From NCBI GenBank assembly GCA_020073145.1, contig JAIQFS010000052.1:1-64000 (forward strand): a DNA stretch of 64,000 nucleotides, given 5' to 3'. The notes beneath the pieces are model-generated. The model worked only from the letters and a program-made list of their open reading frames with translations, did not search any database and had not been told where the DNA came from. This document shows, one piece after another, positions 4,231 to 12,815 of this stretch. This DNA comes from Terriglobia bacterium (GTDB lineage: Bacteria; Acidobacteriota; Terriglobia; Bryobacterales; Bryobacteraceae). A program made the translations under genes and the position numbers. Each line of letters starts with the position of its first letter. Positions within the stretch are counted from its first letter, which is position 1.

Positions 4231-5682
4231 ATGGCCTTGCCGGCGGGCGCTCAGCTCGGTCCCTACGAGATCCTTGCACCCATTGGAGCGGGCGGCATGG
4301 GGGAAGTCTATCGCGCGCGCGACACCAAGCTGCAGCGCGAAGTGGCCGTCAAAGTCCTGCCCGAAGTCTTCGCCACCGATCCGGACCGCATCGTTCGATT
4401 CACGCGCGAAGCGCTGCTGCTGGCGTCGTTGAATCATCCGGGCATCGCGCACATTTACGGCGTCGAAGACCGCGCGCTGGTGATGGAACTGGTGCCGGGC
4501 ACCACGCTGGCGGAACGCATCGCCATGGGGGCGGTTCCTTTGGACGAAGCCGTGCCGATCGCCGCCCAGATCGCCGAAGCCGTGGAGTATGCGCACGACC
4601 ACAACGTCGTCCACCGCGATCTGAAGCCCGCCAACGTCAAGATCACCCCCGAGGGAACGGTGAAGGTGCTTGATTTCGGCTTGGCCAAGGCCCTCGCCGA
4701 CGAGCCGGATACCAGCGACCCGCGCAACTCGCCCACCTTGACGATGACCGCCACCCGAGCGGGCATGGTGCTCGGCACGGCGGCGTACATGTCACCGGAG
4801 CAGGCCAAAGGCAAACCGGTAGACCGCCGGGCGGACATCTGGGCGTTCGGCGTGGTGCTGTACGAGATGCTGGCCGGCAAGCCGCTGCACGAAGGCGAGA
4901 CGGTCGCCGAGACCATGGCGTCGGTCCTCATGAAAGACGTCAAGCTCAACGTGCTGCCGGCAGCGACACCGCCGGCGATCCTCCAATTGCTCCAACGCTG
5001 TCTGGAAAAAGACCCGAAGCAGCGGCTGCAGGCGATTGGCGAGGCGCGTCTGGTGTTGCGCGGCCCCATGCTCGCGGAAGCAGCGCCGGCAAATCCCGCC
5101 GTCGCTCCGGCCCGCCGTCCCTGGGTGTGGATCGCGGCGGCAGCGCTTGCGGTTGCGTTGGGTGTGACCCTATGGGCGCCGTGGCGCACGCCGCCCGTGC
5201 CGGAGGTGGTGCGCTTCCAGGTGCTGGCGCCCGAGAAGATGAGCTTCGCGTTCACCGCGCCGCCGGCGGTCTCGCCGGACGGCCGCCAGCTGGCCTTCAT
5301 CGCCAACACCGATGGCGGCGCGATCGGTCAGGTGTGGGTTCGCTCGCTGGACACGCTCGAAGCGCGGGCACTACCCGGCACGGAGAATTCGGTAGGGGCG
5401 TTATTCTGGTCTCCCGACGGGCGCGTGGAACCGCGAGGGAGTGATTGTTCTGTCCAAGGGTGGACTGGCACGGGTTCCGGCGGGGGGCGGCGCCTGTTCG
5501 CCGTTGACCGTGCTGAACACTTCGCGAGGGGAGACGTTTCACCGGTATCCGTCCTTCTTGCCCGACGGGCACCATTTCATCTATCAACGAGTTTCCAGCC
5601 GCCCGGAAGTTGTGGGCCTCTACGTCGGATCGCTCGATTCCAAGCCGGAACAGCAAAGCACCCGGCGTCTGCTGGCGACTGA
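4231..5682 (+). CDS. Ser/Thr protein kinase, 5' part of a frameshifted kinase-propeller gene
   Basis: This is a Hanks-type kinase with every core motif: glycine loop IGAGGMGEVY (residues 18-27), catalytic Lys41 in VAVKVL, HRDLKPANVK with Asp130, DFG with Asp148, and MSPEQAKG. A single transmembrane segment lies at about 297-314, followed by the start of a TolB/PD40 beta-propeller (PAVSPDGRQLAF, LFWSPDGR). After residue 398 the frame becomes nonsense (VEPRGSDCSVQGW...). The expected 'WNREGVIVLSKGG' strand continues in the +1 frame from base 5423. Relatives carry roughly 30 more residues between 'SPDGR' and 'WNREG', so a deletion whose length is not a multiple of three probably occurred here. 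The kinase domain itself is intact; the last ~85 residues of this frame are spurious. Confidence 0.85.
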   Translation: MALPAGAQLGPYEILAPIGAGGMGEVYRARDTKLQREVAVKVLPEVFATDPDRIVRFTREALLLASLNHPGIAHIYGVEDRALVMELVPGTTLAERIAMGAVPLDEAVPIAAQIAEAVEYAHDHNVVHRDLKPANVKITPEGTVKVLDFGLAKALADEPDTSDPRNSPTLTMTATRAGMVLGTAAYMSPEQAKGKPVDRRADIWAFGVVLYEMLAGKPLHEGETVAETMASVLMKDVKLNVLPAATPPAILQLLQRCLEKDPKQRLQAIGEARLVLRGPMLAEAAPANPAVAPARRPWVWIAAAALAVALGVTLWAPWRTPPVPEVVRFQVLAPEKMSFAFTAPPAVSPDGRQLAFIANTDGGAIGQVWVRSLDTLEARALPGTENSVGALFWSPDGRVEPRGSDCSVQGWTGTGSGGGRRLFAVDRAEHFARGDVSPVSVLLARRAPFHLSTSFQPPGSCGPLRRIARFQAGTAKHPASAGD

Positions 5683-6793
5683 AACGGGCGCCGTGTATGT
5701 CCCGTCGCCCCAGGGCCGGGCAGGCTACTTGCTCTTTCTGCGGGAAGGCGCCCTGATGGCGCAACCGTTCGACGCCCGCCGGCTGGAACTGGCGGGCGAC
5801 GCCACTCCCGTTGCCGAGCACGTGGGCAACGGCCCCGCGGCCGTCGGCGGGTATTTCTCGGCATCCGGGAACGGCACGCTGGTTTACCGCACCGGACCTT
5901 CCTTGGGATCCGGGGGAGGCCTGGGGCTCACCTGGTTTGACCGGCAAGGCAAGTCGTCGATCGCCCCTGTTGATATGGGGCAGTACACCACTCCCGCAAT
6001 CTCTCCGGAAGGGGGGCGCGTAGCCTTCACCGCCGAGACTCAGGGGAATCAGGACCTCTGGATGTACGACGTAGCCCGGGGTTCCAGCACGCGCTTCACG
6101 TTCGATCCCGCCGTGGACATCGCCCCGGTATGGTCTCCGGACGGAACCCGCATTGCCTTTGGCTCGGAGCGCGATGGGCCGCGGAATCTCTACGTAAAGG
6201 TGGCGACCGGCGCCGGTAACGAGGAGCCGTTGTTCAAGTCGGGCCAGAACAAGACGCCCACCGACTGGTCGCGTGACGGGCGATTCCTGCTATTCACCAA
6301 CCACGATCCCAAAACCGGCGCGGACATTTGGGTGATGCCCATGACGGGGGACCGCAAGCCGGCGGTGTATCTACAGACCCAGTTCGACGAGAACGACGCA
6401 GTATTTTCTCCGGACGGCCGCTTCGTGGCTTACGACTCAAACGCTTCCGGCATGAGTGAAATCTATGTGCAGCCGTTCCCGAATCCCACGGGCGGCAAGT
6501 GGATGGTGTCGAAGCGGGGCGGCCAGGTGCCACGCTGGCGCGGCGACGGCAAAGAGCTCTACTACTTGGATCTTGCGGGCGTAAACCTGATGGCGGTGGA
6601 GGTGACGCCGGGCACGGCCTTCCAGGCCACCATCCCGCGTATGCTGTTTGCGAATCCGCCCGGCCCCAATCCTTACGATGCCAAAGCCGACGGCCAGCAA
6701 TTCGTCAAGTTCGCGGTGGCCGGGTCCACGCAGGACGGGCCGCCCACGCCCATCACAGTGGTGCTGAACTGGACCGCGGGGCTCCGGAAATAA
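5441..6793 (+). CDS. TolB/PD40 beta-propeller, 3' part of the frameshifted kinase gene
   Basis: This frame carries the rest of the extracytoplasmic propeller of the kinase gene just upstream. PD40/TolB blades recur: 'YPSFLPDGHHFIY', 'PAISPEGGRVAFTAE', 'APVWSPDGTRIAFGSERDG', 'DWSRDGRFLLFTNHD', 'AVFSPDGRFVAYDSNASG'. The C-terminal 'VPRWRGDGKELYYLDL...LMAVEV' block is typical of acidobacterial kinase-WD40 proteins. The GTG at 5441 is only an arbitrary in-frame start; homologous sequence begins at least at base 5426 ('WNRE'). There is no signal peptide and no convincing ribosome binding site, so the segment was probably part of one polypeptide with the kinase. If expressed alone it would be an unexported propeller. 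A sequencing or assembly error would restore a single gene only if about 30 missing codons were also recovered. Confidence 0.7.
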   Translation: MIVLSKGGLARVPAGGGACSPLTVLNTSRGETFHRYPSFLPDGHHFIYQRVSSRPEVVGLYVGSLDSKPEQQSTRRLLATETGAVYVPSPQGRAGYLLFLREGALMAQPFDARRLELAGDATPVAEHVGNGPAAVGGYFSASGNGTLVYRTGPSLGSGGGLGLTWFDRQGKSSIAPVDMGQYTTPAISPEGGRVAFTAETQGNQDLWMYDVARGSSTRFTFDPAVDIAPVWSPDGTRIAFGSERDGPRNLYVKVATGAGNEEPLFKSGQNKTPTDWSRDGRFLLFTNHDPKTGADIWVMPMTGDRKPAVYLQTQFDENDAVFSPDGRFVAYDSNASGMSEIYVQPFPNPTGGKWMVSKRGGQVPRWRGDGKELYYLDLAGVNLMAVEVTPGTAFQATIPRMLFANPPGPNPYDAKADGQQFVKFAVAGSTQDGPPTPITVVLNWTAGLRK

Positions 6794-7502: not shown

Positions 7503-8687
7503 TCATTGTACGCTTCCGTCCTCCAGAAATCGAGTCGCGCGGGTCAGCCCTTCGCGGAAGACAACCGGTTCGGTCAATAGGCTGACGACGAGAAACGCCT
7601 CCGATTCAAAATCATAGAAGAAGCCCGGTTGGACCAGGACGCCGCACTGAGAAAGCAGGTCCAAGGTCCATTCCTCCTCGGTGCGCACGCGCGGCACCTG
7701 AAGCGTGAGGCACCAACCTCCTTCCACCGCGAGCGGCGTGGCGCAGGAATGGGCAAGCGTCTGGCGCGCGAACTGGAGGTTCTCCGAGGTCCGGCGGCGG
7801 ATCTGCTGCTGCACGGCTTCCCCGGCGGCCAGCAGGCGCGCGGCCGCGTGCTGCACCGGGGTACTCACGGACAGGTACGTATCGGCGATCCACTCCAGGC
7901 GTTCCCAGGCTTGGTCGCGGGGCTCGGCGGGGCCGCCGACCACCATCCAGCCCAGTTTCATTTGGGGAAGGCCCGCGATTTTGGAGAGACCGCTCAGGGA
8001 GAAGGTCAGGCATTCCTCTTCTCCGGCGAGCGTCGCGATCCGCTCCTGGTCGGGACCAAACGCGTAGTCGGAGAACACCTCGTCGGAGATGAGAGCGATG
8101 GTGCGCTCGCGGCACATCCGGGAGAGCAACTCCCATTCGGCGCGCTTGAGGTAGCTGCCGGTGGGGTTGTTCGGGTTGACCAGGATGAGGGCGCGGGTGC
8201 GGCCGGTGACGGCGGCGGCGAGCGCATCCAGGTCGATGGCCCACCGGCCGTGGTAGAAGAGCGGATAGGTACGCACGTCCACCGATTCCATGGAGGCGAG
8301 GCATTCAAACAGCGGGTAGGAAGGCCGCGGCGCCAGGACCTGGTCGCCCGGATCGGTCAGCAGTTTGAAGAGGTAGGCATAGGCTTCACTGGTGCTGGCG
8401 GTGAGGAGGATGCGTTCGGGATCGACGCGCCGTCCGCGCGCGGCATAGTATCCAGCCACGGCTTGCCGCGCCGCGCGCAAACCGGCCGGGGCCGGGTCGT
8501 AGCGCAGGACGTCCGGGTGGTCGAAGGAGCGCGCGATCTCGGGAGGATAGTCGAAGGCGGCGCGCGTGGGATTCGATACCGTGAGGTCGAGAATCGGCGC
8601 GCCTTCGCGGCGCCTGGCTTCCAGGGCGCGCGAGAGCCGGTTGGGCCGGAAATCGCGGGGGAAGCGGGCAGAGAACATATACGTCAT
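7503..8687 (-). CDS. PLP-dependent aminotransferase, class I/II
   Basis: A fold-type I aminotransferase of 394 residues. Visible landmarks are the substrate-side 'DLTVSNPTRAAF' strand, the PLP-contacting 'TASTSEAY' (about 97-104), 'NPNNPTGSYL' with Asn174, 'SDEVFSDYAF' with Asp202, and the Schiff-base Lys236 in 'FSLSGLSKIAGLPQMKLGW'. These place it with aspartate/aromatic-type transaminases, but the amino-acid specificity cannot be read from sequence. The start is an ATG in MTYMFSARFP; the ATG three codons in is also possible. It is divergent from the TetR-TolC gene, with 105 bases between the starts. Confidence 0.88.
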   Translation of the reverse strand: MTYMFSARFPRDFRPNRLSRALEARRREGAPILDLTVSNPTRAAFDYPPEIARSFDHPDVLRYDPAPAGLRAARQAVAGYYAARGRRVDPERILLTASTSEAYAYLFKLLTDPGDQVLAPRPSYPLFECLASMESVDVRTYPLFYHGRWAIDLDALAAAVTGRTRALILVNPNNPTGSYLKRAEWELLSRMCRERTIALISDEVFSDYAFGPDQERIATLAGEEECLTFSLSGLSKIAGLPQMKLGWMVVGGPAEPRDQAWERLEWIADTYLSVSTPVQHAAARLLAAGEAVQQQIRRRTSENLQFARQTLAHSCATPLAVEGGWCLTLQVPRVRTEEEWTLDLLSQCGVLVQPGFFYDFESEAFLVVSLLTEPVVFREGLTRATRFLEDGSVQ

Positions 8688-8754
8688 CTTACGGGTGTGC
8701 GACGCAAAAATGGAAAACCCGGTCTTCGTCTGAGGAGCCCATCGTACGGGGAGA

Positions 8755-8784
8755 TTGACAACCCAGAGTGGATTTTCCTATGTT
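8755..8784 (+). promoter_or_regulatory. Sigma-70-type promoter of the TetR-TolC operon
   Basis: A consensus -35 box TTGACA (8755-8760) and a -10 box TATGTT (8779-8784) are separated by 18 bases. Transcription would start near 8791, leaving almost no leader before the ATG at 8793. The mRNA would therefore be leaderless or nearly so. A GGAAGA at 8785-8790 is too close to the ATG, and too far upstream of the transcript start, to serve as a normal ribosome binding site. Confidence 0.55.
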
Positions 8785-8792
8785 GGAAGAAT

Positions 8793-10877
8793 ATGACTGA
8801 CCAGTCAGTCAGTGACAAGCGCGTCTTGATCCTGGATGCGGCACGCGCGGTATTCTCGCGCAAGAGCTACGCCGAAGCCTCGGTCGAGGATGTGGCCGAA
8901 GAAGCGCGCATCGGCAAAGGGACGCTGTATCTCTACTTCAAATCGAAAGAAGATCTGTACCTGGCCGCGCTGGCCAGCGACTTGCGGCGGATGTCGGCCG
9001 AGGCGCGCGCCGAAATGGAACGCGCCGAGAGTTTTGGCGACAAGCTGCGCGCCTTCCTGCGCGTGCGCATGGAGTTCTGCAAAACGCACGAGGACTTCTT
9101 CCGGATCTATCTGGCGGAGTATGGCAGCATGTTCGTGAAGACGCCGCTGAGCCGGGAACTGATGCAGCTGTTTCGGGAGAACATGCAGTATGTGGCGCGG
9201 GTGGTGGAACAGGCCTGCAAGCGGGGCGAGATTCGCCCGGTGCCGGCAGGCGCGGTGGCCGCGGCCCTGTTCGACATGTCGCGCGGGCTGCTGGAGAGGC
9301 GGCTCTTGAACTGGAAAGAATTCCGGGTGGCGGATGAAATCGAGTTCACGGTCAATCTATTGACCGAGGGGTTGGCGCGGCCGCGCCGAAGCGCGCTCGT
9401 CGCCGCGGCACGCCCGAGACGCCGGCTGCACCGGGCGGCTTTCCTGCTGCTGCTGGCGCTGCTGCCCGCGCTGATGCGGGCCCAATTCGAGACGCGCGGA
9501 GGCGGAGGGGAATCAGGCCGGGCCTCGCAGTTGCCGCTCTCCGGCCGTGTAGGCCAGCCACCGGCCGCCTACGAAGGCAGCGTGGGGCTGGCCCAGACGG
9601 CGGGCCCTCCGTTATCGCTATCGCTCGAGGAAGCGATTCGCCGCGGCCTGCAATACAACATGGGCGCCGCCGGATTTCAGCAAAGCATCCGCCGGGCGCA
9701 GGGGCAGCGCTGGAGCGAACTCGCGAACCTGATGCCCAACGTCAGCACCAGCCTGGCGCTCAACGAACAACAGACCGACCTGGCCGTGTACGGATTCAAA
9801 TTCTCGGCTCCGGGAATCAGCATTCCCAGCGTGGTGGGCCCGTATCACTACTTCGACCTGCGCACGAAGGTGACGCAGACGGTGGCCAACCTGACCACGC
9901 TGCGCAACTACCGCGCCACCGAACAAACCCTGAAGGCAACGCAGTTTTCCGCCCAGGATGCGCGCGACCTGGTGGTGCTGGCGGTGACCAGCGGATACCT
10001 GGCGGTTGCGTCTTCCGGAGCGCGCGTGGAATCGGTTCGGGCACAGGTGGTAGCGGCGCAGGCCACCTACCAGCAAGCCATGGATCGGCACGACGCCGGG
10101 CTGGCCGCGCGGATTGACGTGACGCGCAGCCAAGTGGAGCTCCAGACCCAACAACAACGGCTGACCGCGGTGGAAACCGATCTGGCCAAGGAAAAGATCC
10201 AGCTCGGCCGGGCCATCGGCCTGGCGCCGGGCCAGCAGTTCACCCCCACTGATGCCCTGCCCTACGCGCCGCTGACCGGCCTGACGCTCGAACAGGCGTT
10301 GGATCGGGCGAGCGCCAACCGCGCCGACTTGAAGGCGGCCCAAGCCCAACTGCAGGCGGCGGAACTGGTGCGGCGGGCCGCCGTGGCGGAACGCTATCCC
10401 ACCGCCGAATTTGCCGGCGACTACGGCGTGATCGGCCCCTCTCCCCAGAACTCGCACGGCACATTTACCGTGACCGGCTCGGTGCGCGTACCCATCTGGC
10501 AAGGGGGACGCGTCCGCGGAGATATCGAACAGGCCGATGCCGCCATCGAGCAGCGTCGGCTGGAATATCAGGATTTGCGGGGACGCGTGGACGCGGACGT
10601 GCGCCAGGCGTTCCTGGATCTGACCGCGGCCGCCAGCCAGGTGGCCGTGGCCGAGAGCAGCCGCAACCTGGCCCAGGACACGCTCACGCAGGCGCGCGAC
10701 CGTTTCGCCTCGGGGGTCGCCGATACGATCGAGGTCGTGCAGGCGCAGGAGGCCGTAGCCGGCGCCGAGCAGGATTACATCAACAGCCTCCTGGCGCACA
10801 ATCTGGCGAAGGCCAGCCTGGCGCGCGCCATGGGGCAGGCCGACCAGGGCATCCAGCAACTTCTGGGGAGACCATGA
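8793..10877 (+). CDS. TetR regulator fused in frame to a TolC-type outer-membrane efflux protein
   Basis: One open frame of 694 codons encodes two normally separate proteins. Residues ~1-60 form a TetR helix-turn-helix (ILDAARAVFSRKSYAEASVEDVAEEARIGKGTLYLYFKSKEDLY in two helices), and ~61-195 a helical ligand domain. At about 207-228 there is an Arg-rich stretch followed by a hydrophobic core ('RAAFLLLLALLPALMRAQ'), a signal peptide with a plausible cleavage site before Gln. A TolC/OEP domain follows (LSLEEAIRRGLQYN... to ...NLAKASLARAMGQ) with the paired repeats of that family. No stop or frameshift separates them. TTG codons at 9360 and 9372 could give a separate TolC start. The stop overlaps the adaptor start (ATGA). 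The arrangement implies either internal initiation or signal-peptidase cleavage that frees a cytoplasmic TetR. Confidence 0.8.
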   Translation: MTDQSVSDKRVLILDAARAVFSRKSYAEASVEDVAEEARIGKGTLYLYFKSKEDLYLAALASDLRRMSAEARAEMERAESFGDKLRAFLRVRMEFCKTHEDFFRIYLAEYGSMFVKTPLSRELMQLFRENMQYVARVVEQACKRGEIRPVPAGAVAAALFDMSRGLLERRLLNWKEFRVADEIEFTVNLLTEGLARPRRSALVAAARPRRRLHRAAFLLLLALLPALMRAQFETRGGGGESGRASQLPLSGRVGQPPAAYEGSVGLAQTAGPPLSLSLEEAIRRGLQYNMGAAGFQQSIRRAQGQRWSELANLMPNVSTSLALNEQQTDLAVYGFKFSAPGISIPSVVGPYHYFDLRTKVTQTVANLTTLRNYRATEQTLKATQFSAQDARDLVVLAVTSGYLAVASSGARVESVRAQVVAAQATYQQAMDRHDAGLAARIDVTRSQVELQTQQQRLTAVETDLAKEKIQLGRAIGLAPGQQFTPTDALPYAPLTGLTLEQALDRASANRADLKAAQAQLQAAELVRRAAVAERYPTAEFAGDYGVIGPSPQNSHGTFTVTGSVRVPIWQGGRVRGDIEQADAAIEQRRLEYQDLRGRVDADVRQAFLDLTAAASQVAVAESSRNLAQDTLTQARDRFASGVADTIEVVQAQEAVAGAEQDYINSLLAHNLAKASLARAMGQADQGIQQLLGRP
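8794..8811 (+). promoter_or_regulatory. TetR-type operator overlapping the start codon
   Basis: A perfect inverted repeat, TGACTGAC-CA-GTCAGTCA, starts at the second base of the ATG start codon. It matches the operator form seen upstream of many TetR-family efflux regulators (TGACTGACnnGTCAGTCA). It sits just downstream of the predicted transcription start, where a bound dimer would block RNA polymerase. Since the first gene encodes a TetR domain, autorepression is the obvious reading. The operator also encodes residues 1-7 of the regulator. Confidence 0.75.
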
Positions 10878-12106
10878 TGCAAGCCGAAGAAGTGAACCGG
10901 CCGGGACATTCGACGGGCGTTCCCGAACCGCCGCCATCGAGCGGGCGCTGGAAGGCAATTCTCGTAGTGTTGGCGATCGTCGCGGCACTGGGCACGGGCG
11001 GTTATTGGTACTGGAGCTACGCGCAAACCTTCGAATCCACCGACGACGCGCAGGTGGATGCGCACCTGAACAGCATCAGCGCGCTGATCGAGGGGCCGAT
11101 CATCAAAGTGAACGTGGACGTGAACCAGCGCGTGCAAGCCGGGCAAGTGGTGGCCGAGATCGACCCGCTGTACTATCAGGCGCAAGTGGCACAGGCCAAC
11201 GCGCAACACGCACAGAAAGAGGCCGAAGTACGGGTGCAAGACCCGACCGTCCAAATCACGGAGACCACCAGCCAGACCAGCATCGCGGCAGCCCAGGCAG
11301 CCATCCGCACCGGGGAAGCGGCGATTGCCTGGGCCGAGCAGGATTCGGCGGTAGCGGCGGCGCGGCTGCGCGAAGCGCAAGCCAACTACGCCAAGGCGCA
11401 GGCCGATGTGGCGCGCTATAAAGCTCTGGCCGACAAAGACGAAATTCCGCGCCAGGTCTACGATCAATCGGTAGCGACGTCCCAGGCGCTGAACGCGGCG
11501 GTGGATTCGGCGCGCGCCGCCGTGGATGCTTCCAAGAAACTGGTGGATCAGCGGCGGGCGCAAGTGGCCGAGTCCGAGAGCCGCCTGACGGAGGTTACCC
11601 GCAACGCCCCGCTGCAACTGGCAGTCCGGCGCGCCAACGTGGCGTCCAAGCAGGCCGATGTGCAGGCGGCCCGCGCGCAAGCGGAGAGCGCCATGATCGC
11701 GCTGGCCGACACCAAGATCATTGCTGCCATTTCCGGGATCGTGACCAAACGCAATGTCGAAATCGGCAACCACGTGCAGCCTGGGCAACAGTTGTTCCAG
11801 GTGGCGCAGATCGACGATTTGTGGGTGACAGCCAATTTCAAGGAGACGGAGCTGAAGCGGATCCGGATGGGCCAGAAAGCAACTATCTCGGTGGATGCGT
11901 TCGGGCAGGAGTTCCGGGGCTACGTGGAAAGCCTGCCCGCGGCCACCGGCACGGTGACCAGCCTGCTGCCGCCGGAGAACGCCAGCGGCAATTTCGTGAA
12001 GGTGGTGCAGCGGCTGCCGGTGCGCCTGCGGTTCGACAAGAACCAGGCCGGGCTGGAACGCCTGCGCCCGGGAATGTCGGTAGAGCCCAAAGTCTGGGTG
12101 AAGTAG
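10874..12106 (+). CDS. EmrA/HlyD-type membrane fusion protein
   Basis: A periplasmic adaptor of 410 residues that would link an inner-membrane pump to the TolC channel. It has a cytoplasmic N-terminus, one anchor helix at about 34-54 (AILVVLAIVAALGTGGYWYW), then the EmrA signature 'TDDAQVDAHLNSISALIEG'. The lipoyl half-motif is 'VDVNQRVQAGQVVAEIDP'. A long Ala/Gln-rich coiled-coil hairpin spans roughly 95-260. The second lipoyl part, 'GIVTKRNVEIGNHVQPGQQL', is followed by the beta-barrel 'LWVTANFKETELKRIRMGQ'. The start overlaps the TolC stop by four bases. Unusually, no MFS or ABC pump follows; the next gene is an AlkD-like repair protein. The missing pump must be encoded elsewhere. Confidence 0.9.
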   Translation: MMQAEEVNRPGHSTGVPEPPPSSGRWKAILVVLAIVAALGTGGYWYWSYAQTFESTDDAQVDAHLNSISALIEGPIIKVNVDVNQRVQAGQVVAEIDPLYYQAQVAQANAQHAQKEAEVRVQDPTVQITETTSQTSIAAAQAAIRTGEAAIAWAEQDSAVAAARLREAQANYAKAQADVARYKALADKDEIPRQVYDQSVATSQALNAAVDSARAAVDASKKLVDQRRAQVAESESRLTEVTRNAPLQLAVRRANVASKQADVQAARAQAESAMIALADTKIIAAISGIVTKRNVEIGNHVQPGQQLFQVAQIDDLWVTANFKETELKRIRMGQKATISVDAFGQEFRGYVESLPAATGTVTSLLPPENASGNFVKVVQRLPVRLRFDKNQAGLERLRPGMSVEPKVWVK

Positions 12107-12107
12107 C

Positions 12108-12815
12108 GTGGCCGCGCATCGCGGCTTGATCCGCGCGCTGCGCCAGGCTTTGCGCGCGGCGGCCGACCCGGCAAAAGGGCCGGCCATGCAGGCATACATG
12201 AAGTCGGACATGCCCTATTGGGGCGTGCAGGCGCAGCCGTTGCGGCGGATCACGAAGGCCGTGTTCGCCGAGCACCCTCTGGCGTCGTTCGAGGCGTGGC
12301 GCGACACCCTGCTCGCGATCTGGCGCGAGGCCGGCCATCGCGAGGAGCGCTACGCCGCCATCGAACTGGCCGGGGGTCCGGCCTACCGCGCCTGGCAGAC
12401 TCTGGACGCGCTGCCGATCTATGAGGAACTGATTGTTTCGGGCGCCTGGTGGGATACGGTGGACGCGATTGCCAGCCATCAGATCGGCGGCCTGCTGCGG
12501 GGCTACCCGGCCCAGATGAAGCCGGTGCTGCGCGCCTGGGCGAAGGGCGACGACATCTGGAAGCGCCGCACGGCGATTCTGGCGCAGCTCGGAAGCAAAC
12601 GGGAGACCGACCTCAAGCTGCTCTACGATTGCATTCGGCCCTCACTCCACCGTCCGGAGTTCTTCCTGCGCAAGGGCATTGGCTGGGCTTTGCGGCAGTA
12701 CGCCCATACCGATGCCGCGGAAATCGTGCGCTATGTGCGCCGGCACGAAGCGCTTCTCAGCCCGCTGAGCCGGCGAGAAGCGCTGAAGAATGTGGGACGA
12801 AACAACGGACGCTAG
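12108..12815 (+). CDS. DNA alkylation repair protein, AlkD-like HEAT-repeat glycosylase
   Basis: The 235-residue all-helical protein matches the AlkD family, whose members excise alkylated bases such as 3-methyl- and 7-methylguanine by HEAT-like repeats that grip the DNA backbone. The family's functional strings are visible: 'VSGAWWDTVDAIASHQIGGLL' holds the Trp-Trp-Asp motif with the catalytic Asp, and 'FFLRKGIGWALRQYA' holds the Arg/Trp pair lining the pocket. It starts at a GTG one base after the adaptor stop, so it appears to be the last gene of the TetR-TolC-EmrA transcript. Its 3' end overlaps the convergent YceI gene by four bases. Co-regulation with an efflux system hints at a shared alkylating or genotoxic trigger; that is inference. 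Confidence 0.85.
   Translation: MAAHRGLIRALRQALRAAADPAKGPAMQAYMKSDMPYWGVQAQPLRRITKAVFAEHPLASFEAWRDTLLAIWREAGHREERYAAIELAGGPAYRAWQTLDALPIYEELIVSGAWWDTVDAIASHQIGGLLRGYPAQMKPVLRAWAKGDDIWKRRTAILAQLGSKRETDLKLLYDCIRPSLHRPEFFLRKGIGWALRQYAHTDAAEIVRYVRRHEALLSPLSRREALKNVGRNNGR

Follow-up and report, generated by a model that had tools for sequence, protein, structure and literature searches.

The stretch of DNA analysed here (the window, 64,000 nucleotides of a Terriglobia bacterium) contains a single open frame of 694 codons on the forward strand (8793–10877; ATG at 8793, TGA at 10875–10877) that encodes a complete TetR repressor and a complete TolC channel, joined by a short basic linker and a signal-peptide helix, in that order. 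A preliminary description had reported a TetR domain, a signal-like segment and TolC in one uninterrupted frame: open reading frame analysis, Pfam, AlphaFold2 and Foldseek all bear this out. Neighbouring operon genes are often fused where their products act in the same place. Here the joined parts are bound for different compartments: a cytoplasmic DNA-binding repressor and an outer-membrane channel, intact in two species. Judged from its sequence, the arrangement is a variant of a known Emr-type operon, surprising for its compartment mismatch.

The TetR half (residues 1–194; 8793–9374, forward strand) is complete by Pfam/NCBIfam, structure prediction, structural search and substitution pattern. 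The N-terminal helix-turn-helix matches Pfam TetR_N (PF00440) at residues 13–59 (E 2e-16), TetR_C_24 (PF17932) scores slightly under the Pfam cut-off, and AlphaFold2 and Foldseek agree on the nine-helix, all-helical fold with ligand domain that is typical of the family. Foldseek matches are to FadR-type TetR structures (E ~3e-6, TMt 0.80–0.85). In the AlphaFold2 model, built on a 24-row alignment, the nine TetR helices occupy residues 3–194 and are followed by the disordered basic linker (195–211; 9375–9425, forward strand) and a lone helix (212–230); a second disordered stretch comes after residue 230 and then the full TolC fold at 274–690. Confidence is low (pLDDT <50) across residues 198–215. 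The mature channel corresponds to residues 231–694 plus the stop codon (9483–10877, forward strand), and Pfam OEP (PF02321, E 4e-42) matches it in two stretches, the best at residues 499–681. Both OEP repeats, with beta strands and long helices, are recovered by Pfam, AlphaFold2 and Foldseek, the closest structures being E. coli TolC (1ek9, E 2e-16) and also OprM and VceC.

The distribution of the fusion was defined by searches with the fusion protein in 237 genomes of the same family and 396 from across the phylum, and with the TetR part in 399 genomes of the class (overlapping samples, different queries). TetR and TolC share one frame in just two of these: the window genome (G000) and G003, a metagenome-assembled genome of the same genus (REEB305, contig JAGWQP010000369.1), whose uninterrupted fusion is 74% identical over 691 residues. 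Other long open frames upstream of tolC, inspected and read in frame, held no TetR; the plasmids searched carried no such fusion, and the open-licence literature yielded no earlier report of one. The next-closest relatives, three in number, keep tetR and tolC as separate genes, and so do the other Acidobacteriota searched, mostly with an overlap of a few bases.

The junctions of the three closest unfused relatives are informative. In G004 tetR ends in TAG and tolC starts at a GTG a few bases downstream; in G002 tolC begins, in a different frame, at a GTG that overlaps the tetR end; G034 has an ATGA overlap. The stop codon of tetR and the start of tolC in these relatives map in or near the linker of the fusion. 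Each separate tolC has a strong Shine-Dalgarno (SD) sequence (−11.7 kcal/mol in G004, −10.3 in G002, −9.5 in G034), and this ribosome-binding site is gone in both fused genomes. Across the class, 19 of 28 unfused TetR homologues overlap the following start (mostly that of tolC) as ATGA, GTGA or TTGA. Together with the relatives' junctions, this points to a coupled pair of overlapping genes as the ancestral state; overlaps this short link the translation of the two genes and are over-represented among partners required in fixed ratios (PMC10666635). Three further loci, in G132, G007 and G005 (L073, L026 and L027, respectively), have tolC closely preceded by a tetR-like gene that is in frame with it, a stop codon lying between them; there too, loss of the stop codon plus an open spacer could fuse the two.

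Could the stop codon have been lost to a sequencing or assembly error? In favour of this, the window genome comes as a draft in 88 contigs, and close to the fusion the frame of a kinase-like gene may be interrupted at ~5440; yet the same in-frame fusion is present in G003, a separate assembly that differs by 26% in protein sequence; we regard an error as very improbable. On that gene itself: a Ser/Thr-kinase-like open frame (4231–5682) overlaps one in another frame (5441–6793), and the two (4231–6793) look like a single kinase plus WD40/TolB-like gene with a frameshift near 5440, either real or a sequencing indel. The preliminary description had proposed that conservation of the fusion be sought among related Acidobacteria, and that a stop and separate start in relatives would speak against it. 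The fusion is conserved in one sister species, G003, but in none of the other relatives found; most relatives do have the stop and separate start, which we read as the ancestral state and not as a sign of error, because G003 shares the fusion.

The two fused genomes group together in the TolC tree (support 100/99) and in the EmrA tree (82/88), while TetR is too short a sequence for its tree to resolve the five genomes. Where the coding sequences of the two fusions differ in length, they do so by whole codons. Synonymous divergence (dS) is ~1.3, near saturation by the simple method used. The ratio dN/dS is 0.126 over TetR residues 1–190, with 0.056 in the helix-turn-helix, and 0.109 over TolC residues 276–694. 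The linker (0.14) and the signal segment (0.27) also appear constrained, each on the basis of two sequences and about two dozen codons; taken alone, the dN/dS values fit one polypeptide or two alike. Purifying selection on both halves at this dS argues that the fusion is old, and sequence comparison, together with the emrB loss that both loci share (see below), suggests one ancestral loss of the stop codon, long kept. If the fusion was a single event, both halves have stayed functional since. These data bear directly on the notion of a decaying locus, in which a pump gene and a stop codon were lost and the fusion has little function. Such decay might account for the missing emrB at both fused loci (see below) and for the lack of a third fusion in the genomes searched, but both frames are intact in two species under the constraint just given, operator and promoter are conserved, and a dead gene would carry stops and frameshifts. 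We consider decay decidedly unlikely.

Upstream of the fusion lies a probable sigma-70-type promoter (TTGACA-18-TATGTT; 8755–8784, forward strand) that matches the consensus at 10 of 12 positions and ends 8 bases before the ATG. Similar −35 and −10 hexamers are found at the same place in G003, G004, G002 and G034, and all five tetR starts have a weak SD. A probable TetR operator, the 8-bp inverted repeat TGACTGAC-CA-GTCAGTCA (8794–8811), lies over the start codon and is identical in the five genomes. Its position there explains why the first codons of tetR (MTDQSV) are invariant in all five. Because the promoter ends so close to the ATG, the transcript probably has no leader or next to none, and is probably autorepressed by TetR at the predicted operator.

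How the frame is expressed is the central question, and on balance we lean towards a single autorepressed polyprotein, fused by stop loss and cut between A230 and Q231 so that TolC is exported. The stop codon would have been lost between overlapping, probably translationally coupled genes at the head of an Emr-type operon (tetR-tolC-emrA-emrB). Transcription would start at or beside the ATG and be shut by TetR bound to the inverted repeat; each round of translation would give one TetR–linker–signal–TolC chain, of which TetR would fold first, in the cytoplasm. The internal basic and hydrophobic signal would meanwhile be taken by Sec in the N-in orientation, and signal peptidase I would cut A230|Q231, sending TolC to the outer membrane. 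TetR would remain on the cytoplasmic side, the signal helix forming its membrane tail, unless a protease afterwards trims TetR within the disordered linker.

Several features of sequence and predicted structure speak for this polyprotein. If TolC no longer has a start of its own, its strong ribosome-binding site should have vanished, as it has. The signal-like segment of the TolC half is internal, coming after ~211 residues, and forms a predicted signal-peptide helix (residues 212–230, LHRAAFLLLLALLPALMRA; 9426–9482, forward strand) that is kept in G003 and exceeds its counterparts in unfused relatives in both hydrophobicity and positive charge: core hydrophobicity is 2.77 (Kyte-Doolittle) against 2.27–2.32 in separate-gene relatives, and the charge before the core is +7 against +1 or +2, part of the extra charge being the basic TetR tail that unfused relatives also have. 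Counting against the polyprotein, a folded TetR dimer beside the signal might hinder export. Long cytoplasmic domains ahead of a cleaved signal are unusual.

It had been suggested at the outset that signal-peptidase cleavage before Gln231 would release both halves. The LMRA|Q motif is indeed kept in G000 and G003, but release of both does not follow from the cut by itself. A cut here would free TolC and leave TetR tethered by the signal helix, so that release of both needs a further trimming step. Stop codons in other frames are present near the end of TetR; inspection of the junction comparison revealed no conserved slippery site that might release TetR by frameshifting.

Alternatively there may be two products, with TolC started mainly inside the frame and the start at 8793 giving full-length TetR–TolC, as the repressor or as a by-product. 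The preliminary description had named TTG 9360 or TTG 9372 as internal starts; both are poor candidates, since the SD of the first is only −2.5 kcal/mol and that of the second touches the codon directly, and the aligned codons in G003 are CTT and CTG. TTG 9306 is more plausible: GGAGAGG (9293–9299) lies six bases ahead of the TTG (9306–9308), the whole candidate spanning 9293–9308 on the forward strand, and TolC started there would have a 59-residue leader. This combination, with an SD of −7.5 kcal/mol, is present in both fused genomes, while in place of the TTG the three closest unfused relatives have CTG; the AGG of the SD is the only AGG arginine codon in the window's fusion, and in unfused relatives tolC did have a start of its own. 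Against this, the SD is weaker than those of the separate tolC starts (−9.5 to −11.7 kcal/mol), neighbouring synonymous positions show no unusual conservation on inspection, and a background count, giving a rate that is not low, finds that similar SD-plus-start combinations arise by chance inside unfused tetR genes. TTG 9306, a post hoc candidate although a better one than the other two, is unproven, and was downgraded after this count; production of two proteins is a reading we hold as rather doubtful. The earlier expectation that repressor and channel would be made in fixed relation either way is valid for the single polypeptide and lapses if TolC starts internally.

Were the polyprotein to be made, it would be a natural test of two things: whether Sec can export an outer-membrane channel that follows a folded cytoplasmic domain of 200 residues, and whether cleavage of a signal peptide can create a membrane-tethered repressor. 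We raise, as a tentative extension, the possibility that it is self-regulating: repressor and channel would always be made one to one, and signal peptidase would leave a tethered TetR whose amount or activity reports export of the channel. A related proposal is that tethering itself was selected, the fusion, cut or uncut, holding TetR at the inner membrane in the manner of ToxR/CadC-type regulators so that TolC export or membrane state feeds back on transcription. The predicted topology – cytoplasmic DNA-binding domain, one hydrophobic helix, exported domain – is as this requires, and membrane-anchored DNA-binding regulators are an established precedent (PMC11856585). However, a TolC trimer sitting in the outer membrane cannot keep its link to a helix in the inner one, the cleavage motif is conserved, and this analysis gave no sign of sensing; selection for tethering appears unlikely.

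Gene order around the fusion is common to the window genome and G003: a divergent aminotransferase gene, the fusion, emrA, an alkylation-repair-like gene and a yceI-like gene. The antisense of the aminotransferase gene joins the open frame upstream of the fusion, giving a 1082-aa open reading frame (7629–10877) that was rejected as the gene. Adjoining the channel is the gene for an EmrA-type periplasmic adaptor (10874–12106, forward strand), as expected of EmrAB-TolC systems; it shares a 4-base ATGA overlap with the fusion and matches NCBIfam TIGR00998 (E 4e-64) with a score of 216.9, below the curated cut-off of 390.8. Directly after it comes a gene named from its sequence as DNA-alkylation-repair-like (12108–12815, forward strand), which sits where G002 has emrB. 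The MFS transporter gene emrB, retained in all the close relatives examined and placed directly after emrA in five (G002, G004, G034, G195 and G182), is absent from both fused loci, so that one member of the EmrAB-TolC operon is wanting; the loss is clean in both genomes, emrA standing next to the alkylation-repair-like gene (12106–12108 in the window).

A second, complete tolC-emrA-emrB set is found on the minus strand from ~61740 in the window to contig position 65945, beyond the window end. Its upstream neighbour is glycogen-phosphorylase-like, and no recognisable tetR adjoins it. The transporter for the EmrA and TolC of the fused locus could come from elsewhere in trans, for example from this emr locus at 61.7–65.9 kb.

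The locus invites comparison with several known systems. Its direct homologues are the tetR-tolC-emrA-emrB operons of G002, G004 and G034, which belong to the Acidobacteriota operons for MFS efflux of EmrAB-TolC type. Gene order, an operator over the start of tetR, adaptor and channel are held in common with these; they have separate, overlapping or adjacent tetR and tolC genes together with emrB, whereas here there is one frame and emrB is lost. The TetR half, nearest in fold to FadR-type structures, resembles the TetR-family autorepressors of efflux genes (AcrR, MtrR and EnvR type) in its complete helix-turn-helix and ligand domain and in the inverted-repeat operator at its own promoter. It differs from them in that its C-terminus runs on into a signal peptide and an outer-membrane channel. 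With the one-component regulators ToxR, CadC and TcpP the fusion shares the order of cytoplasmic DNA-binding domain, single hydrophobic helix and exported part. The DNA-binding domain of ToxR and CadC, however, is a winged helix of OmpR type, and here it is TetR_N; and where ToxR, CadC and TcpP have a permanent anchor and a periplasmic sensor, in the fusion the helix looks cleavable and what is exported is an outer-membrane channel.
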